A stretch of DNA of 54,385 nucleotides from an uncultured bacterium (GCA_903882905.1 CAIRYW010000010.1:1-54385), one strand, 5' to 3'. Positions 2,448 through 37,918 are shown, numbered from the stretch's first letter. A program made the numbers and translations. Notes: generated by a model not told the origin, from the sequence alone.

Positions 2448-4277
2448 TTAAAGGTTATTTCTTTCCTCATCCAATTCTTTTTTTGCGGCACGATTTGCGA
2501 GAACTTGAGAAGGATCAGAAGTAATAATTTGATCCTCGGTGTAAGAAGCAATAACTTTAATGGCTACGTGTTTTAACCCTGCAAAGAAAATTCCTTCCCC
2601 AACATCTGATTCAAGTAAAAGATATTTTTCTTCATCTGTTAAATTAAAAGTATGTTGAACACTATCAATCGAAGATGGAGATTGTTTTAGAAGCACCTGA
2701 ATTGATGAGTTTGTAATAATAGGAAGACCATATGGAGATTTTAGAAAATCTTCTACGTCTTGAGTAATCGTACATAGACCTAAATAATATTTTCGACACC
2801 TTTTTGCTAAACCTAAAAGGAACGAAGCAGTGTCTTCGGATTTCATCATCCACCAAGCTTCATCAATAACTAAAATTCTTTTTCTTAGTTTTTGTCTGAT
2901 GGCATTCCATATATAGTGAGTGACGATATACATAGCAACAGGCTTTAGTTCGTCTTCCATATCTCGAAGTGAAAATACAATAAATTTTTTATTGATATCA
3001 ACGTTTGATGGCCTGTTAATAAAGCCAGCCCAAGTTCCTTTTGTGTATTTTTCTAATCTTTGAACAAGTGAAGCTCCACCTTCCATTCCAGCAAGCACTA
3101 ATTCAAAGTCAGAAAGTAGTGGAGGTTCAACAGCTGTAAAGTCAGACTCAGGAGTAATGTCTTTAAGAGCATATGTTTGACCTATTGCTTGGTCGATTAC
3201 AGAATCTTCTTCTGGAGTAAGTCCTCCAAGCATAATTCTAAAAAGACCAACGAGATTAATAATGTTTGCACGAAGAACGTCGGCCGCAGATTCATCTTCC
3301 CTTGGCACAGGGAGATCAAATGGATTGATATGGTGTTCTGAGTTTAGAGAGATATTAAAGTACCTACCCCCTGTTGCTTCTGAGAGATATTCATATTCTT
3401 TTTCAGGGTCGATCACGATTACATCAATATCAAACATTAAGGATCGAAGGATTTCCAATTTTGTAAAATAACTTTTTCCACTACCAGCTTTTGCAAAAGT
3501 CACAGAGTTGTAGTTTTCCAAAGAAAATCTATCAAATAATATAAGACTGGAATTGTGTCTGTTGATTCCGTAAAGGATTCCTTTATCTGATGTAAGGTCA
3601 AAAGAAATAAAAGGAAAAACACTCGAAAGCGGAGAAGAGTTTAGTTTTGAGTTTACATTCAACTCATCTGTACCAAAAGGAAGCACGCTTCTGAAACCTT
3701 GTTCTTGTTGGAATAAAGCCGGTTTTACATAAACAAGTTTTGATTCAAGAATTGATTTTATTTCAGATTCAATTTTATCAAGTTCATCGTTTGTACTTCC
3801 ATAAATCGTAAAATAAAGACCAACATCAAATATTTTTTCTTGGGCTTGCTGAAGTTGATCTCTAAGTTGTTCGAGGTCTTGATATGCAGTGTCCAATACT
3901 GGGTCACGAACAAGGCCTTTTTCTTCTCTCATGTGAATCTGACTTTGAACTTCAGCTACTTTTTTTTGGAAAGTTCTAAGAATTTGAGCTGTATCAATTG
4001 GGTGAACATAAATTGAAATGTCAAAAATTTTATCTAGGTTTATGATCGGAGCAAACCAACTTTCAGTTAAAAATCTTGGATAAGAAATCACAAAAAAAGT
4101 TCGAGCAATTTTATCTCCAAGACTGATATCTCGTGGCGTAACTTTTATTGCCGAAGGAGCAATAACATCTTTAAGTTCAAGAACAGCTGAGCTGTAAATT
4201 TCTTCAGGTAGAATAGCGGTTACCGCTGGGTTTTGGTTTGTGTTTTTTTTATTAAATAAATTATCTAAAAATGACAT
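2448..4277 (-). CDS. virB4: VirB4/TraC-type conjugal transfer ATPase
   Basis: Walker A FAKAGSGKSYFTKLE, Walker B RILVIDEAWWMM, VirB4-like layout. Confidence 0.9.
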   Translation of the reverse strand: MSFLDNLFNKKNTNQNPAVTAILPEEIYSSAVLELKDVIAPSAIKVTPRDISLGDKIARTFFVISYPRFLTESWFAPIINLDKIFDISIYVHPIDTAQILRTFQKKVAEVQSQIHMREEKGLVRDPVLDTAYQDLEQLRDQLQQAQEKIFDVGLYFTIYGSTNDELDKIESEIKSILESKLVYVKPALFQQEQGFRSVLPFGTDELNVNSKLNSSPLSSVFPFISFDLTSDKGILYGINRHNSSLILFDRFSLENYNSVTFAKAGSGKSYFTKLEILRSLMFDIDVIVIDPEKEYEYLSEATGGRYFNISLNSEHHINPFDLPVPREDESAADVLRANIINLVGLFRIMLGGLTPEEDSVIDQAIGQTYALKDITPESDFTAVEPPLLSDFELVLAGMEGGASLVQRLEKYTKGTWAGFINRPSNVDINKKFIVFSLRDMEDELKPVAMYIVTHYIWNAIRQKLRKRILVIDEAWWMMKSEDTASFLLGLAKRCRKYYLGLCTITQDVEDFLKSPYGLPIITNSSIQVLLKQSPSSIDSVQHTFNLTDEEKYLLLESDVGEGIFFAGLKHVAIKVIASYTEDQIITSDPSQVLANRAAKKELDEERNNL

Positions 4278-4283
4278 GGTTTA

Positions 4284-4926
4284 TTATTTAACTACCTGAT
4301 TAATATTAATTGGTTTTTCAGTTTCTCCTGGATTGAATAATTTATAATACAACTCAATCACCTCTTCTGTGCCAAGTGGAATTGATCTAACTCCCATTCT
4401 TGTGAGGCCTTGTATGACGATTTGGACCCTTTCATCTAGTTGAGTTCTATTTTCTTCAAAATTATCTTTATCTTGAGCTGTTTTACTCTTTTGTTTTTTA
4501 CCAGTAAATAAACCTGCTACTGCCCCCCCCTTTTCCTTGAACCATTGAAGGTTCGTATGAGACAACAACAAAAAAACTTTTGTTCATTATGTTTACTTGG
4601 TCAGTAAAAGTTTTGATGAAATTTATGTATTCTCTAGTTTGGATTTTAAGTAAATCGTTTCTTTGTTCTTTCAAAACACTTTCGAGCAATGTTATGTACG
4701 GTTTTATATCCAGCCTACGAGACTGCATAAAAATTTGAATAGAAAAATTAATTGAATTTAAAAAATTTTGAAACTGCATGATGATAGCTTCTTGTTCATC
4801 AGCACCTTTAAGCGCAAAGTTAACAGAAGATGTCATAATCACAGACCTAAGACTGTTATCTTTCATTATGATAACTCCATCCCGAATTTCTTTTATTGGA
4901 ACAAAATCTTGTGAATTTATTGCCAT
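4284..4926 (-). CDS. VirB4 N-terminal-like protein, apparently split by a 1-nt frameshift at a G8 tract (ORFs 4498..4926 and 4284..4571)
   Basis: Two overlapping ORFs in different frames; removing one G from the C8/G8 run at 4523-4530 gives one continuous ORF ...SYEPSMVQGKGGAVAGLFTGKKQKSK... Confidence 0.65.
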
Positions 4927-5423
4927 TTTATTTTTTTAATATCATCTTGAATGCCTTGAAAACTATTTATTTCTTCTTTTGAAACGTCATTTCCTATTCT
5001 TTGTTCTTTTTCAAGAGCTCTTTGATTACTGATTGTATCATTTATATCAAGACTCCATGTTAATTCTCTTAATTTTGATTCTGAAAGTTTTGGAATTAAG
5101 TCTTTGCTTACAGGTGAAGTTGCCATTTGAGCGGTAGAATTATTTTTTGTTTTTTGCCACAAATAAAGTTTTTTGCTAAGAAAAAATCTTACAGCTGATT
5201 CAACTATAAAAACGAAAGGTCTATTATTAACTTTGTAGAAGGCTAAGGCCAAAGAAAACCCGCCTACAGGAAGGATTATAAAAAAAGAAATATAAATAGG
5301 AAAAAATCTATAAGCTAAAAAACATATCGCTCCCCCACCGGCAACGTAAGCAAATTGCTTGAACGTAAGTGGTCCAAAAATTTTATCTTCTATTTCAATA
5401 AATTGAGGAACTTGGTACTGCAT
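4917..5423 (-). CDS. PrgI-family / VirB3-like membrane protein
   Basis: MQYQVPQFIEIEDKIFGPLTFKQFAYVAGGGAICFLAYRFFP..., PrgI-like; placed before the VirB4 genes. Confidence 0.8.
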   Translation of the reverse strand: MQYQVPQFIEIEDKIFGPLTFKQFAYVAGGGAICFLAYRFFPIYISFFIILPVGGFSLALAFYKVNNRPFVFIVESAVRFFLSKKLYLWQKTKNNSTAQMATSPVSKDLIPKLSESKLRELTWSLDINDTISNQRALEKEQRIGNDVSKEEINSFQGIQDDIKKIKWQ

Positions 5424-5430
5424 ATTTTTT

Positions 5431-5461
5431 AGGTGCGAGGTTTTAGTTTAGAGGTGCGAGG
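5431..5461. repeat. Left flanking GGTGCGAG-type repeat of the four-helix-bundle cassette
   Basis: AGGTGCGAGGTTTTAGTTTAGAGGTGCGAGG; inverted relative to CCTCGCACCTCGCACCTC at 5905-5922. Confidence 0.7.
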
Positions 5462-5834
5462 GATCAATTGAAAGTTTTGAAATAAAAACTTTTAACATTT
5501 TTCTTATCTCATCCAATAAGATCTTACAGTTATTATATTCTAAATCGGAGATGAAAGATAATTTTTTCGAAATAAATAATTGAGTCTCAACTTCTGCACA
5601 TGAACCTAGGGAAATGCGCAAAAATTGACTGAAATCTTTGCGAGTAGACCTTTGTTTACCCTCAGCTATGTTTGAGGCTATAGAAACTGAAGCTCTTTTT
5701 AATTGAGAACTGAGTCCATAGAGTTCAGAGGTTGGAAATTTGGAAGTTAGTTTGTATATTTTTTCAATTAAATCAATACTTTTTTGCCACACTATCAAAT
5801 CTTGGTAGTCGTTAATTTTCGCTTTTGTATCCAT
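5448..5834 (-). CDS. Four-helix-bundle protein (23S rRNA intervening-sequence/Avd-like family)
   Basis: DLIVWQKSIDLIEKIYKLTSKFPTSELYGLSSQLKRASVSIASNIAEGKQRSTRKDFSQFLRISLGSCAEVETQL is typical of this family. Confidence 0.9.
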   Translation of the reverse strand: MDTKAKINDYQDLIVWQKSIDLIEKIYKLTSKFPTSELYGLSSQLKRASVSIASNIAEGKQRSTRKDFSQFLRISLGSCAEVETQLFISKKLSFISDLEYNNCKILLDEIRKMLKVFISKLSIDPSHL

Positions 5835-5859
5835 TTTATTTTAAAGTTTTGTCCTTTTT

Positions 5860-5936
5860 CCTCGAACCTCCCACCTTGCCACTCGCAACTGTTTTAACTT
5901 CTTCCCTCGCACCTCGCACCTCAAAACTCTTAACCT
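5860..5936. repeat. Right flanking CTCGCAC/CTCGCAA heptad-type repeat
   Basis: CTCGAACCTCCCACC...CTCGCAACTGTTTTAACTTCTTCCCTCGCACCTCGCACCTCAAAACTCTTAACC. Confidence 0.75.
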
Positions 5937-5989
5937 CTATATTTTACAGAACTTTTATAAAAAACAAAAAGTGATATTATGATAAATGT

Positions 5990-6490
5990 ATGAGTAACCC
6001 AGAACAACCACCAAGAGAAGAGGGAGCAGGAGAAACTTTGAGGCCTGATGCTGAAGTTTTACCGACTAGTACAGAAATAAAAGATGCTGAACGAGAAGAA
6101 CAACAAGCAGAACACGCTAGGAGCGCTGAAGAAAGAAATAGATTAGGAGAGGAATTAACTACTACCCCTATTGCAGAAAATGTTCCAAGACAAGAAGAAG
6201 TTACAAGAGAAAATACTACAGAAGAAACTTCTAACGAAACTCCAAATGAACCCCCAGGAATATTTAGAAGAAGTATAAATAAATTAAAAGAAAAATTTAA
6301 TAATTCTAAGGCTAGCGTTAAAAATTTTTTTAAGACTTCTGGACCAAGGAGGTGGAGTATTGGTCTTTTTTGGGGATTTTTTTATGCACTTAAAGTTGGC
6401 TGGGAAAAAGCTATTGGTAGCAAAGGTGGAGGAGGTGGCAGCAGTCCTAAAAAAAGTTCTGGTGGCGGACACGGAGGAGGACATCACTAG
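5990..6490 (+). CDS. Acidic protein with Gly/His-rich C-terminus, unknown
   Basis: ORF 166 aa; ends KGGGGGSSPKKSSGGGHGGGHH. Confidence 0.6.
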   Translation: MSNPEQPPREEGAGETLRPDAEVLPTSTEIKDAEREEQQAEHARSAEERNRLGEELTTTPIAENVPRQEEVTRENTTEETSNETPNEPPGIFRRSINKLKEKFNNSKASVKNFFKTSGPRRWSIGLFWGFFYALKVGWEKAIGSKGGGGGSSPKKSSGGGHGGGHH

Positions 6491-7456: not shown

Positions 7457-10126
7457 TTATCTTTTATAAGTACTATCTATGTTAACCCCAAATCGCTGCC
7501 CATCCTCAATAATAGCTTCTTTTGCTGCTATTGATTCTTGGCTTACTTTTACACCTCTAGCACCATTGGTCTGGTGCATAACAGCTGCCGTTGATGAGTC
7601 GTCTGCAAACTTTGTCTTGTATGCATCCAATATCATGTCAGTGGCGACGGTAAGATTGCCATGGATCATATTTGCTTGTCTTACTGTTTCCCTCATATCA
7701 TCTGAGTCTATTCTTCCAGCAAGATGTTTGAGTTTGTCTACTAAAATGGCATCATTTTTTGCGGCTGGATTATCTCTCATTATTTTTACAATGTCGTTTA
7801 ATGAAGCAATTTCTTGAGCAGCAGAACCTGAGAGTTTTTTAATATCATCATCAATCAAATCATTTCTTGCAATACCAACAAATGTTGCTTCTCCACCACC
7901 TTTGTTTCGTAAACCTCTCGTGAGAGCATCTCTTAATGCATCGCCGGCTGGAGTAACTGCTTTTAATTTGTTTCTACCTGCATCTTTTACAGCTTCTAGA
8001 GCAGAAATTATTTGTCCTTGAGTTCTGTCTTTATTTGATAGCCATGCCTGCAATTCATCCGCATTTCCTCTTTCAAGAATTTTATTAAGCTCATCATCAA
8101 AGAATTCATTTCCTTGTTTTGTCTGTCTAATAATTTCTCTAATTTCTTGATCGGTGTTCCTACCGTGTCCATGCTCTGTGAAAAGTCTACTAAACATGCG
8201 ATTCCCTTCTCCTCCTTTAGCTTTCATATGTAGCATTACGTTTGCTTTTTGCTTTGTAGACATTTTGTCCCAATCTTGCTCGAATCCCTGTTGTTCTGTG
8301 CTATTTTTTGATCCCATTCCTATATCGATTGCTTGTTGTGCAATTCTTTCTGGGTCATCGTGAAATTCATGCTTAGCAGCCTCTCGATATTTTGCTTCAA
8401 AGTCTAATTTTTTGTTGTATCCAGATGCTAAATTATCAGCGATTGCCACCTGTGCTCTCGCTGTCCATTTTGATGCCCATCCAACAGCTTTTCCGTGTTC
8501 ATCAAATCCAGAGGCTCTACCATAAAGTCCAGCAGAAACACCTTTTTCTTTCCATGTTCTAACTGCTTTTCCAACTGTATTATTAAATCCAGATCCAACC
8601 GCGAACATTGCCCCTCCTTGTATCGCCCCTTGAGCGCCTTTTGCAAAATTCATTGCGCCTGATGCTCCAGCAACACCCATTTTTTCTGCAACGATAAGTG
8701 TGGCAATCAAAAGAGCAGATACAATCATAAAATCAAGCAGGACACCGGCATTCTTTTCTGCTGCTGTTCCGTTACCGGTTGTTCCATTGTCTCCAGCTTG
8801 TAAACTAGTAGCTAATAAATTGTCTGATGAATCTCTAGTACCACCTTCTCCTAAAGCAGCCAAAAATCCAGGATTATTAATTACAGTAAAAGAAATCCAA
8901 AGCAAAATCATATACATAGGAGCAAAAAAAGCTTCTTTCAAAAGATAATTCCACCATTCGTGTACATAACCTTCTGTTTGGTGTAAAACCATTCCTGCAA
9001 AAGCTAAGGGAGAAAAAATCATAACAAGAATTAAGATGACATATCTTTTTATAAACATCACTAGGGCTGATATCAAAATAACAAGCGCTACTATCATGGT
9101 GATAGATCCGCCAGCTAAAATTGAAAAAGGTACGCTACTTACCGCAACTGCATTTCCATTTGTTAATGTCTTTGTAACAGAATACAGAGATTGTAATCGG
9201 AAGGCTGCCATAAAAGCATCCCCTATTCCACCTGTACCACCATTAACAGTAATTGCATGAAAAAAAGCAATAGCCAGTATATTTGAAGCATCAATAATTA
9301 CTTTTGTAAAAAACAAACTAAAATTTAAAAGCACTGCAACAGTAATCAATTTTGAGAGAGTTTTTTTGACATCATGTTCACCTACTCCAAGAATTGTAGA
9401 AATTGCTAAATAAAGAAGAATAAAAATAAACCCTATATTTGCCAAATCTCTCATTGTTTTCCAAGCTACATCAATTGCTCCGATTTTGTCTATTCCACTT
9501 GCCATACTCAATACGGTTATTGTAAAAGTATAGTTAAATAACCAGCCAGCAATACCTACTAACCAGCTCAGTGGCCAAAAAATACCATAATATAGACCTA
9601 TAATTAGGCAGTTTCCAGCATCAAGGAATGCCCCAACCCCACCAACACCTATGCTAAAACATTGTCCTTGGTGGTCAACTAATGGTGAACGACCTCCTCC
9701 ACCACTATCTGATGTACCATTTTGAGCAGAATCTGTAACCGTGCCGTTTGTTGCGTCGGAAAGACTTTTTCCTGTAACAGTGACATCAGGATTTCCTTTA
9801 GAATCGAGTCGAGGAGTAACTTGTGAGTATGTATTAACCATTGTCGTTCCTTGCATGTCCGAACTTTTTTGGTAATATAATTTATTATCTGCTTGATAAA
9901 CATTAGTTATTGTCTTTCCTGTTGAATCAACAACCGACAGTCGGGCTGAAGTTGATAAAACTTGTACGTTATCTGGGAGACCTTTATTTGTTACGTAGCC
10001 TCCAGTCCCTGCTTGTGCGTCTACTGCTTCTGCAAATCCAAAAGAAAATATTGCGACAAATGCAATTACTAAAACTATTTTAGAGAAAGAAAAAATATTT
10101 TTTTTGTCTATTTTGAGAAAACTCAT
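7457..10126 (-). CDS. VirB6/TrbL-like large multi-TM T4SS protein
   Basis: 889 aa, signal sequence, several TM helices, Ala/Gly-rich cytosolic C-terminal extension. Confidence 0.75.
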   Translation of the reverse strand: MSFLKIDKKNIFSFSKIVLVIAFVAIFSFGFAEAVDAQAGTGGYVTNKGLPDNVQVLSTSARLSVVDSTGKTITNVYQADNKLYYQKSSDMQGTTMVNTYSQVTPRLDSKGNPDVTVTGKSLSDATNGTVTDSAQNGTSDSGGGGRSPLVDHQGQCFSIGVGGVGAFLDAGNCLIIGLYYGIFWPLSWLVGIAGWLFNYTFTITVLSMASGIDKIGAIDVAWKTMRDLANIGFIFILLYLAISTILGVGEHDVKKTLSKLITVAVLLNFSLFFTKVIIDASNILAIAFFHAITVNGGTGGIGDAFMAAFRLQSLYSVTKTLTNGNAVAVSSVPFSILAGGSITMIVALVILISALVMFIKRYVILILVMIFSPLAFAGMVLHQTEGYVHEWWNYLLKEAFFAPMYMILLWISFTVINNPGFLAALGEGGTRDSSDNLLATSLQAGDNGTTGNGTAAEKNAGVLLDFMIVSALLIATLIVAEKMGVAGASGAMNFAKGAQGAIQGGAMFAVGSGFNNTVGKAVRTWKEKGVSAGLYGRASGFDEHGKAVGWASKWTARAQVAIADNLASGYNKKLDFEAKYREAAKHEFHDDPERIAQQAIDIGMGSKNSTEQQGFEQDWDKMSTKQKANVMLHMKAKGGEGNRMFSRLFTEHGHGRNTDQEIREIIRQTKQGNEFFDDELNKILERGNADELQAWLSNKDRTQGQIISALEAVKDAGRNKLKAVTPAGDALRDALTRGLRNKGGGEATFVGIARNDLIDDDIKKLSGSAAQEIASLNDIVKIMRDNPAAKNDAILVDKLKHLAGRIDSDDMRETVRQANMIHGNLTVATDMILDAYKTKFADDSSTAAVMHQTNGARGVKVSQESIAAKEAIIEDGQRFGVNIDSTYKR

Positions 10127-35923: not shown

Positions 35924-36062
35924 TTGTGCACCCAGAGGGATTTTCGAAACTTACAGTTTCTGTATACCTTTTGGATATTTTATTTCGTGAACTCATAAAA
36001 TAATCTCAAAAGGTTTTCGAATCCCTCAAGAAAGCTCTCCCAGAGCTTTCTTGATTGCTTGT
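35924..36062 (-). ncRNA. Candidate tRNA-proximal structured element (Arg copy)
   Basis: Terminator-like hairpin, then GGGATTCGAA complementary to the tRNA-Arg T-arm, two hairpins, then an 18-nt exact copy of the tRNA 3' end (ATCCCTCTGGGTGCACAA). Confidence 0.5.
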
Positions 36063-36133
36063 GCACCCAGAGGGATTCGAACCCCCAACAACCGCTTCGA
36101 AGGCGGGTATGATATCCATTTCACTATGGGTGC
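36063..36133 (-). tRNA. tRNA-Arg (anticodon TCG)
   Basis: GCACCCA/TGGGTGC acceptor, loop CTTCGAA, T-arm GGGGGTTCGAATCCCTC. Confidence 0.9.
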
Positions 36134-36223
36134 ATATCGAAATCTTACTCTAGTATGCATAAAAATCAAAAAGGTCTGGTTGAAATTACTGCCTAAAATG
36201 ATAAACTAAAAAAGTAAAAATAT

Positions 36224-36294
36224 GCGGGTATAGTTTAGTGGTAAAATGAGTCCTTGCCAAGGATTAGATTCGGGTTCGATTCCCGGTACCCGCA
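36224..36294 (+). tRNA. tRNA-Gly (anticodon GCC)
   Basis: GCGGGTA/TACCCGC acceptor, TCCTTGCCAAGGA anticodon arm, GGGTTCGATTCCC. Confidence 0.93.
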
Positions 36295-36500
36295 CAAGAA
36301 AAACTGACGCCGAAAGGCGTCTTTTTCTTGTGCGGGTAAGAAAGCAAATTTATTTGCTTTCGTCCGGGAATCGAAAGCCGGAATATGTCGCGTAGCGACT
36401 ATGAGGCGGGGTCGCGACCTTTTGCGCAGCAAAAGAGTTGTGACCGATTCCCTTTACTCTTAATTTGTGACGGCAAATAAACTATCTGTGACCGATTCCC
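36295..36500 (+). ncRNA. Candidate tRNA-proximal structured element (Gly copy)
   Basis: Terminator hairpin, TGCGGGTA and CCGGGAATCGAA mirror the tRNA 3' end, core GAAAGCCG...GAGGCGGGGTCG, two GTGACCGATTCCC ends. Confidence 0.55.
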
Positions 36501-36768
36501 CATCTTTATTCCTTGCTTCCCTTGTAATAACCTCCCTTTCTCTACGTCTTAGAGTAACTTACTAAACTCTGTCCTTTTGACCTTTAGATGTCCCTATTTC
36601 TCCAAAATAGGCCTAAAACTGTGGATAACTCTGTTAACATGTGTAAAAGACACCAAAAAAGACATTGTCAAATTATGTCTTAAATACTATAATAGCGTTG
36701 CTAGATAAGGTTATTATTGAGAAATAGACCAAGACGTTTCGTAAGAAACGTCTTGTAAAACATTTCAC

Positions 36769-37218
36769 GTGGAACATAACAATTTAAAACTACAAGTTGG
36801 AGTTAAAGCTCTTATTTTCAATAAAAATAAGGATATTTTATTACTAAAAAGGATTCCTGAGAGAAAAGGAGAAGATAGTTGTTGGGATATTCCAGGTGGA
36901 AGAATAAATAACAACCGAAGTCTGCTAAGTAATCTTTTAAGGGAGATTAAAGAAGAGACTTCTCTCAATAGTATCTCAAATCCAGTTATCCTTTCAGCTC
37001 AAGATGTATTCTTTAGGGGTAGTAGGATTGTTAGGGTAACTTATGTTGCACGTGTAACATCTAGCAGGGTAGTAAAGTTAAGTAGTGAGCATTCGGAGTA
37101 TAAATGGGTTAAGTTTGATGACTTAATGAAAATTAAAGATTTAGATAAGCACGTAAGGATTATTATAAAGGACAAAGATAAGGTGTCCTTAATAAAATCC
37201 TTTATTAATAAGGTTTAA
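36769..37218 (+). CDS. NUDIX hydrolase
   Basis: PGGRINNNRSLLSNLLREIKEETSL; GTG start. Confidence 0.9.
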   Translation: MEHNNLKLQVGVKALIFNKNKDILLLKRIPERKGEDSCWDIPGGRINNNRSLLSNLLREIKEETSLNSISNPVILSAQDVFFRGSRIVRVTYVARVTSSRVVKLSSEHSEYKWVKFDDLMKIKDLDKHVRIIIKDKDKVSLIKSFINKV

Positions 37219-37231
37219 ATTATAAAAGATC

Positions 37232-37624
37232 GTGAACTTAAATAAGATCGGAAAATTAGGAGAGGATATTGCTGTAAAGTTTCTCAAAGGGAAGGGATTT
37301 GAGGTTTTGAATAGAAATTACCTTAAAAAACTGGGAGAAATTGACATTGTTGCTAAAAAGCTAGGTATTTACCACTTTATTGAGGTAAAAGCAGTTTCAC
37401 GTGAAATTATTGACAATAAGCCGGTGAAAGGGGACTTTGTGGAACCTGAGGAGAATATGCACAGGGATAAGATAAGAAGATTAGCAAATGCTATAGAAAT
37501 ATTTTTGGAGTCAAATAAAGTTTCATGTGAAAGGTTTACGTTCGATTTATTTGTAGTTTATATCGATATAAAACAAAAGAAAGTATTAGTCAAGGTTTAT
37601 GAAGATTTTCCTCTATTTATATGA
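37232..37624 (+). CDS. YraN/UPF0102 family protein
   Basis: KIGKLGEDIAVKFLKGKGFEVLNRNYLKKLGEIDIVAKKLGIYHFIEVKAV. Confidence 0.92.
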   Translation: MNLNKIGKLGEDIAVKFLKGKGFEVLNRNYLKKLGEIDIVAKKLGIYHFIEVKAVSREIIDNKPVKGDFVEPEENMHRDKIRRLANAIEIFLESNKVSCERFTFDLFVVYIDIKQKKVLVKVYEDFPLFI

Positions 37625-37680
37625 ATTAAATATAAATAAATTTCTAAAAAAAAGAGTGTTGTGTTAAACTCATGTTTCAA

Positions 37681-37751
37681 CGGAGTGTAGTGTAACGGTA
37701 GCATTAATGCTTTGGGAGCATTCGGTCCGGGTTCAAATCCCGGCACTCCGA
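37681..37751 (+). tRNA. tRNA-Pro (anticodon TGG)
   Basis: CGGAGTG/CACTCCG acceptor, ATGCTTTGGGAGCAT anticodon arm, GGTTCAAATCC. Confidence 0.93.
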
Positions 37752-37918
37752 CACGTGAAAAACAGCGAAGCTGTTTTTAGGGATTTGAAAGCCGCAGCTA
37801 TATTTTGCTTAGCAAAGCAAAATAGCGAGGCGGGGCCGAGAAATTTTACGAGCGACGGCGAGTAAAATATTCGTGGCCAAATCCTTTTTTAGCATAAATT
37901 TATCTGTGACCAAATCTT
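37752..37918 (+). ncRNA. Candidate tRNA-proximal structured element (Pro copy)
   Basis: AAAAACAGC GAA GCTGTTTTT hairpin, GGGATTTGAA complementary to the tRNA-Pro T-arm, core GAAAGCCG...GAGGCGGGGCCG, GTGGCCAAATCC-T6, then TATCTGTGACCAAATCTT. Confidence 0.55.

Follow-up and report, generated by a model that had tools for sequence, protein, structure and literature searches.

Short folded elements with host-matched inverted arms beside the tRNA genes of Patescibacteria

Results and Discussion

Three of the four tRNA genes on a contig of a Patescibacteria genome are followed by gene-less units in which an inverted arm mirrors the T-arm of the adjacent tRNA, a conserved core folds, and a copy of the tRNA 3' half closes the insert. 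These units are probably miniature mobile or recombining DNA elements that reside in structured-RNA genes, mostly in the tRNA T-loop between U55 and C56. T-loop insertion geometry, duplication of the 3' half, a target-matched inverted arm, a strand-specific fold and turnover were all observed. The analysed stretch of 54,385 nucleotides, contig C10 of a genome of 745,831 bases in 29 contigs, is referred to as the window.

The three units in the window

The tRNA genes of the window were Arg-TCG (minus strand), Gly-GCC, Pro-TGG and Gly-TCC (ARAGORN). An element was looked for at the Gly-TCC tRNA (44238) and none was found, in agreement with the sequence-only reading that preceded this work; every motif quoted in that reading was found where it had been placed. 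In the following, X denotes the tRNA from C56 on (8 nt, CRANNYYY), X' is the reverse complement of X, and a slash marks the junction. The unit layout was tRNA..GGTT/X, acceptor strand, trailer, hairpin, X' plus AA, core, and /X, with a size of about 130-250 bp and without genes. The hairpin was often terminator-like, and the right X often comprised the whole tRNA 3' end, sometimes with CCA and trailer. The features are listed in Table 1.

Table 1. Host tRNA genes and unit features in the window
Feature	Position	Strand	Evidence
tRNA-Gly(GCC), intact host gene; T-loop junction TT/C between 36276 and 36277	36224..36295	+	ARAGORN, Rfam
Gly terminator-like hairpin, 17-bp perfect inverted repeat; also mirrors acceptor strand and trailer (TACCCGCACAAGAAAAA and TTTTTCTTGTGCGGGTA)	36287..36338	+	inverted repeat, fold
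Gly extra hairpin, splits the mirror copy between acceptor and T-arm parts	36340..36361	+	inverted repeat
Gly X', reverse complement of T-arm (CCGGGAATCGAA)	36364..36375	+	inverted repeat 12/12
Gly core A: P2 (GCC-GGA..GA-GGC), P3 (GGTCGC..GTGAC)	36376..36444	+	model R1 match 36366-36452, 74.7 bits, E 1.8e-20; covariation
Gly right copy X (CGATTCCC) of tRNA 3' half, truncated	36445..36452	+	direct repeat
Gly second tandem unit, remnant, ends GTGAC/CGATTCCC	36453..36500	+	direct repeat; complete tandem units elsewhere
tRNA-Pro(TGG), intact host gene	37681..37752	+	ARAGORN, Rfam
Pro terminator-like hairpin	37758..37778	+	inverted repeat
Pro X', reverse complement of T-arm (GGGATTTGAA)	37780..37789	+	inverted repeat 10/10
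Pro core A, P2 and P3 hairpins longer	37790..37877	+	R1 match 37780-37885, 65.8 bits, E 1.1e-17
Pro right copy X (CAAATCCT)	37878..37885	+	repeat; arm tracking
Pro second right end, remnant (TATCTGTGACCAAATC)	37901..37916	+	direct repeat
tRNA-Arg(TCG), intact host gene	36061..36133	-	ARAGORN, Rfam
Arg terminator-like hairpin	36026..36054	-	inverted repeat
Arg X', reverse complement of T-arm (GAGGGATTCGAA)	36016..36027	-	inverted repeat 12/12
Arg core B: ACCTTTTG..CAAAAGGT hairpin, then TATACAG-AAACTGTAAGTTT	35947..36015	-	core B pattern and alignment
Arg right copy of tRNA 3' half (CGAAAATCCCTCTGGGTGCAC), with 2-nt insertion	35926..35946	-	direct repeat

The exact reverse complement of the T-arm that had been reported downstream of each tRNA was present in all three units; the mirrored T-arms were TTCGATTCCCGG (36275-36286) for Gly and TTCAAATCCC (37732-37741) for Pro. 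The sense copies were likewise present, a second one being found at 36493-36500 for Gly and at about 37911 for Pro. The Arg copy was longer than had been noticed, a 21-nt duplicate of the entire tRNA 3' end that corresponds to CGAATCCCTCTGGGTGCAC within the tRNA. Counterparts of the Gly extra hairpin were found in units at tmRNA of several genomes and at Phe and Cys tRNAs. At Trp (L046) and Arg (L076) the inverted part reproduces the 3' strand in reverse complement and not the 5' strand, and an origin from a mimic of a tRNA (acceptor 5' strand and T-arm) was accordingly rejected.

Folding z-scores of the Gly, Pro and Arg elements were -6.4, -6.0 and -4.9, respectively, and the Gly segment from T-arm to inverted arm formed a large palindrome (-66.7 kcal/mol, z -12.7). 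Because of these z-scores and the recurrence of core A in the same genome and in relatives, the elements of the window are not attributed to chance.

The tRNA order Arg-TCG, Gly-GCC, Pro-TGG, Gly-TCC is common to the window and to locus L076 (G028:C7:220000-230000, 3345-6111), across families. Gly-GCC and Pro-TGG carry units at both places.

Core folds

One architecture had been proposed for all three tRNAs. The X', core and X layout was indeed shared, but a single core was ruled out, the Arg element belonging to a second family (core B) and the Gly and Pro elements to core A. Core A consists of P2 (GNC-GGA-stem/loop-GA-GNC), a GG linker and P3 (GGTCGC-stem/loop-GTGACC), and is predicted to form a three-way junction together with the X'/X stem; its unit junction is GTGAC/CRANNYYY. 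The Arg core B reads X'-AA-ACCTTTTG-GAG..CGAA..-CAAAAGGT-RTACNG-(NNC)TGTAA(GNN)-/X. A 5' hairpin module, GTGAGAAGCGAA..CTTG.AGCTTCGCAAG, is common to both cores, and the P2 and P3 modules reassort among units.

Both folds were tested by covariation. Among 14 core A copies of the same genome, 92% of cells were paired and 13 of 23 pairs were double-changed, compared to at most 46% paired in slid controls. With 143 distinct sequences, 96.5% of cells were paired, 22 of 23 pairs were double-changed and covariation was 0.594 versus at most 0.10 in slid versions, values that are biased in favour of the model, to which this alignment was fitted. Nine core B sequences gave 97% pairing over 12 tested pairs, seven of them double-changed (slid versions at most 54%). 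The paired cells of core A comprised 2861 Watson-Crick, 222 G.U (129 of these from one conserved wobble) and 10 A.C combinations. From the many G.U and few A.C cells it follows that selection for the core A structure acts on the tRNA-sense strand, whether in RNA or in single-stranded DNA. The earlier idea of a structured class tied to tRNA held in so far as the core is a covarying fold absent from Rfam.

A third, unrelated insert (GAGGAAGCGCAACGAACGGAGTGAGTGAGCAAGCTCTTACT) with the same habit follows tRNA-Ala(GGC) in L358 (G205:C1:585500-587100). It closes with a duplicate of the tRNA 3' end, and a sequence resembling the insert is also located behind the Ser-GGA unit of this genome (L261).

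Occurrence of the elements

Core A was matched 25 times in the own genome at E < 0.003 (model R1). Of 60 relatives from the same order, 53 contained it, with up to 65 copies per genome, and its occurrence across the phylum was patchy (58 of 380 genomes, 11 candidates scored per genome). The core B signature gave 11 pattern matches in the own genome versus none for the reversed control, and occurred in 58 of 148 genomes of the order, with one control match among those listed; its neighbours were Arg, Thr, Phe, Gly, Leu and other tRNAs. Named organisms with the element were Parcubacteria-type Patescibacteria (Nomurabacteria, Adlerbacteria, Yonathbacteria, Kaiserbacteria, Berkelbacteria and others). 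Outside Patescibacteria, 58 named contigs fitted the short pattern, and none gave a convincing model match (best E 0.013). A virus-borne element was rejected, as 21 viral contigs fitted the short pattern and none the model. In Rfam 15 the elements gave only tRNA matches at gathering score, nothing relevant at E <= 5 and no ribozyme match. Literature searches yielded neither a description of the element family nor a precedent for a target-mirroring arm or for a range over nearly all tRNAs, and we know of no such precedent.

In 87 of 142 matches, a set that favours high scorers, the element was preceded on the same strand by a tRNA or tmRNA whose end lay no more than 450 nt away, usually at 45-60 nt. 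Among the tRNAs listed for two genomes, 19 of 27 (G028) and 7 of 22 (G000) were followed by a core on the same strand within 300 nt, where about 0.35 and 0.11 adjacencies, respectively, are expected by chance. Units were also located at tmRNA and 5S rRNA genes. In a mirrored 5-prime type, a broken tRNA 5' half carries the core and is closely followed by an intact tRNA, in most cases the same tRNA; the tRNAs were Ser, Ala, Asn, Gln, Met and Thr, and a 38-nt leader was included once. In stand-alone copies a self-contained hairpin (TTGAATTGC-GAAcacttGGA-GCAATTCAA) replaces the tRNA arm. Tandem and nested units were found in further loci.

On a Kaiserbacteria contig (L178, about 4000-4700), a 5S rRNA gene is followed by a partial, altered 5S copy, and core A elements flank both sides. 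A tRNA of 69.9 bits with the ARAGORN anticodon TTA (G000:C4:159596-159668, plus strand; L065 1367-1440) lies beside a weak core match and is possibly a UAA suppressor tRNA. A gene for an AadA-like nucleotidyltransferase (PF13427; L279, G150:C12, 6272-7108, minus strand) starts no more than about 10 nt from the right end of the tRNA-Gln unit.

Occupied and unoccupied tRNA genes

The right copy extended to the tRNA 3' end in 44 of 89 units. Orthologous tRNAs were compared among four members of genus g160 (G213, G205, G150 and G388). At Arg-GCG, G150 is unoccupied (CGCCA/ggaaatttcggaaacac..gcgcgctgtttattccc) and G213 is occupied (CGCCA/insert-GTGAC-CGAGTCCCTCCGGGTGCGCCA/tgaatttcggaaatag..gcgctgtttattccc). 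G213 is longer by exactly the insert and a single 21-bp duplicate of the tRNA 3' end, and the native sequence beyond the last CCA is identical. The Arg-GCG unit of G205 has a different spacer, which suggests an independent event. Ala-GGC is unoccupied in G388 and occupied in G213 and G150. At Gly-CCC, G213 carries two units and G388 one; the unit of G205 is truncated, and G150 has none. Equally clean sites would result from deletion between the 21-bp repeats; the comparisons therefore show turnover and not its direction.

The cores at Arg-TCG, tmRNA and Gly-CCC of G213 are 97% identical over about 66 nt, and their X' arms differ, each fitting the local host (AGGATTCGAA, AGGAGTCGAA and GGGATGAGAA, respectively). 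Near-identical cores with host-specific arms suggest gain and recent spread, with gene conversion among these cores as an alternative.

Arm tracking and its interpretation

The X' arm matched the own tRNA at 8.56 of 10 positions (86 units, 31 distinct T-arms), compared to a mean of 7.11 and a maximum of 7.43 in 500 permutations. The right copy matched at 6.5 of 8 positions (permuted 5.29, maximum 5.55). The arms thus differ as the tRNAs differ, as had been proposed. That proposal was to be abandoned if relatives lacked a conserved core or if the arms did not follow the adjacent tRNA; the core recurred in the relatives and the arms followed. In variant arms (GGGATGAGAA or GGGACGAGAA) the T-stem complement alone is retained. 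X' could pair at 7.29 of 8 positions with the tRNA versus 6.79 of 8 with the right copy, and where the right copy had drifted, X' usually still fitted the tRNA. This better fit is also consistent with a function in cis or with hairpin correction.

As a cis-acting RNA, the unit would control tRNA maturation, read-through or decay, with X' pairing either to the T-arm of the tRNA (misfolding) or to the downstream sense copy (freeing). The strand asymmetry of the fold, the persistence of the X' match to the tRNA beyond that to a decayed right copy, the mutually exclusive pairings in predicted folds and some units that lie between tRNAs without a terminator (L017, L041) are in line with such a role. 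It is nevertheless considered unlikely, since many units sit behind terminator-like hairpins, presence at the same tRNA is patchy within one genus, many tRNAs of the same genomes have no units, cores are also present where no intact tRNA lies nearby upstream, and tandem and nested copies exist. For the cis fold that the sequence-only reading had offered, the lasting complementarity of X' to the tRNA speaks in favour, and the hairpins, the turnover and the displaced cores speak against it.

Replication without a dedicated enzyme was also weighed. Template switching at hairpins would create X, X', X triplications, hairpin correction would keep X', and the core would be a junction sequence spread by recombination. 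Two template switches give the layout X, X', X, template switching has been reported to generate perfect stems and to preserve them (PMC8794818), and in some units the tRNA 3' end with its trailer forms a near-perfect palindrome (Arg in L076). Left unexplained are the two conserved, covarying cores with a fixed junction across the phylum and the presence of 97%-identical cores beside several tRNAs within a single genome, and such an origin is judged quite improbable. Of the three readings first offered, the mobile, tRNA-targeting element was best supported, namely by the exact 3'-half duplication, the filled and unoccupied orthologues, the tandem units and the near-identical cores at different tRNAs.

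Candidate enzymes and neighbouring islands

No enzyme for the units was found in searches for Y1 transposases and for serine and tyrosine recombinases; no recombinase gene was seen within units, nor any moving circle or cargo-carrying unit. A RAYT/Y1 transposase was rejected as mover, PF01797 being absent from G002 and G003 (98-100% complete, 12-13 units); RAYT loci had no strong core match except one in G018. Serine recombinases were not detected in G018, which has 65 units. One tyrosine recombinase each was found in the element-rich genomes G001, G002, G003, G018 and G042 (IntI and Xer types taken together), and most element-rich genomes tested had one or few Xer-like recombinases. The presence of Y1 transposases, serine recombinases or tyrosine recombinases did not follow the number of units. 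At a distance of 3.5 kb from the tRNA cluster, the window itself contains a gene for an Xer-like tyrosine recombinase (PF00589, PF02899; 31589-32545, plus strand). Of the two tyrosine recombinases detected in this genome, it is the stronger one.

Cargo-carrying cassettes were considered at tRNA-Gln of G213 (3.6 and 1.35 kb) and at tRNA-Glu of G298 (9 kb, with a serine recombinase and R-M-like genes). At both loci a partial tRNA 3' end lies directly before the unit hairpin; these are therefore separate islands that entered between tRNA and unit. The large serine recombinase of G298 (PF00239, PF07508, PF13408; L317, G298:C1:408000-426000, 7763-9265, plus strand) overlaps tRNA-Glu antisense with its C-terminal codons. 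Another serine recombinase gene (L365, G000:C3, 975-2528, minus strand) overlaps the 3' half of tRNA-Thr antisense, and an inverted repeat of about 110 bp of the tRNA-Thr-adjacent region (about 1037-1150 and 2980-3110) is located on the other side of the tRNA.

Such neighbours bear on the possibility that the units are non-autonomous remnants or decoys of serine- or tyrosine-recombinase islands that integrate at the 3' ends of tRNA genes; the duplicated half would then be a copy of the att site. The ssrA islands of Dehalococcoides are a known case of insertion in the T-loop with a 20-bp 3'-end repeat (PMC3146451), and islands adjoin units at the tRNA-Glu and tRNA-Gln loci described above. Yet one core serves many tRNA specificities as well as tmRNA and 5S, unlike single-site integrases, unit-rich genomes without serine recombinases exist, and the islands have their own partial tRNA ends apart from the core. 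This origin is regarded as very doubtful.

Proposed mechanism and significance

For a mobile DNA element, the following route can be envisaged from the layout and the folds. An enzyme would act on the single, folded sense strand, on which the P2 and P3 hairpins would present the junction GAC/X at the foot of P3. X' would pair with the target site TT/X and thereby position GAC/X and TT/X. The first five T-loop bases (TTCRA), common to nearly all tRNAs, could let one element reach any tRNA, and X' may be acquired on entry by copying the new host tRNA, after pairing through TTCRA. Insertion would be viable because an intact tRNA remains. Tentatively, the units may form a new class of mobile elements that enters structured-RNA genes via the near-universal TTCRA, makes its guide arm as a mirror copy of the rest of the host gene, leaves an intact tRNA, folds on one strand, is served by a putative enzyme and is able to colonise nearly every tRNA of a genome, with cores A and B as two lineages that share this habit.

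An apparently undescribed structured element is present in tens of copies beside tRNA, tmRNA and sometimes 5S genes, in one of the largest radiations of bacteria, whose genomes are otherwise very small. If mobile, it would show how nearly all tRNAs can become targets of a single element that acquires its own guide, and would point to a new enzyme of transposition or recombination in Patescibacteria; in a regulatory role, it would represent a tRNA-by-tRNA control layer in cis. Either way, the units supply direct repeats beside essential genes and split tRNA copies, and can mislead the annotation of tRNA genes, 5S genes and att sites.

Comparison with known systems

Rickettsial palindromic elements (RPE) are palindromic sequences of about 100-150 bp that have spread through a reduced genome; to our knowledge, they are not described with target-matched arms or with duplication of a tRNA 3' half. 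With REP and BIME sequences the units share the form of short intergenic palindromic repeats in tens of copies with a GGAG-like motif at the hairpin foot, but RAYT is absent from element-rich genomes, and we know of no REP that duplicates or mirrors tRNA sequence. Tandem inversion duplication fits the X, X', X layout and does not predict conserved, covarying cores at the junction. In IS200/IS605 elements and PATEs, hairpins of one single strand are used, and cleavage sites are recognised by pairing with a guide beside the hairpin. The IS200/IS605 guide is fixed and about 4 nt long, whereas that of the units has 8-12 nt and equals the host tRNA; the units also differ by the lack of a linked Y1 transposase and by long target duplicates.

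The ssrA islands of Dehalococcoides combine T-loop insertion, a direct repeat of about 20 bp of the 3' end, a serine recombinase overlapping the target gene and tandem arrangement (PMC3146451). The units likewise lie in the T-loop, are flanked by a direct repeat of the tRNA 3' end and form tandem arrays. The islands are multi-gene and specific for one gene, in contrast to the gene-less units at many tRNAs with their X' arm and folded core.

Integron attC sites have a poorly conserved fold that acts on one strand, with the junction at its foot (PMC2727003). As in integron cassettes, units occur in tandem, and X', placed close to the 3' end, can pair with the X beyond the junction (PMC2727003). 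Strand asymmetry and a fold were seen in the units by cell counts and covariation, and an action on one strand with the junction at the foot of the fold would resemble that of attC. Unlike the R boxes of attC, which keep AAC and GTT, X and X' vary with the host tRNA and show no constant AAC..GTT; attC forms one long hairpin, the units a three-way junction. In contrast to integrons, no cargo genes were seen, no integron integrase was identified, and many tRNA genes are occupied instead of one attI. By analogy, the proposed pairing-guided positioning would follow the logic of both the IS200/IS605 guides and the integron attC folds.
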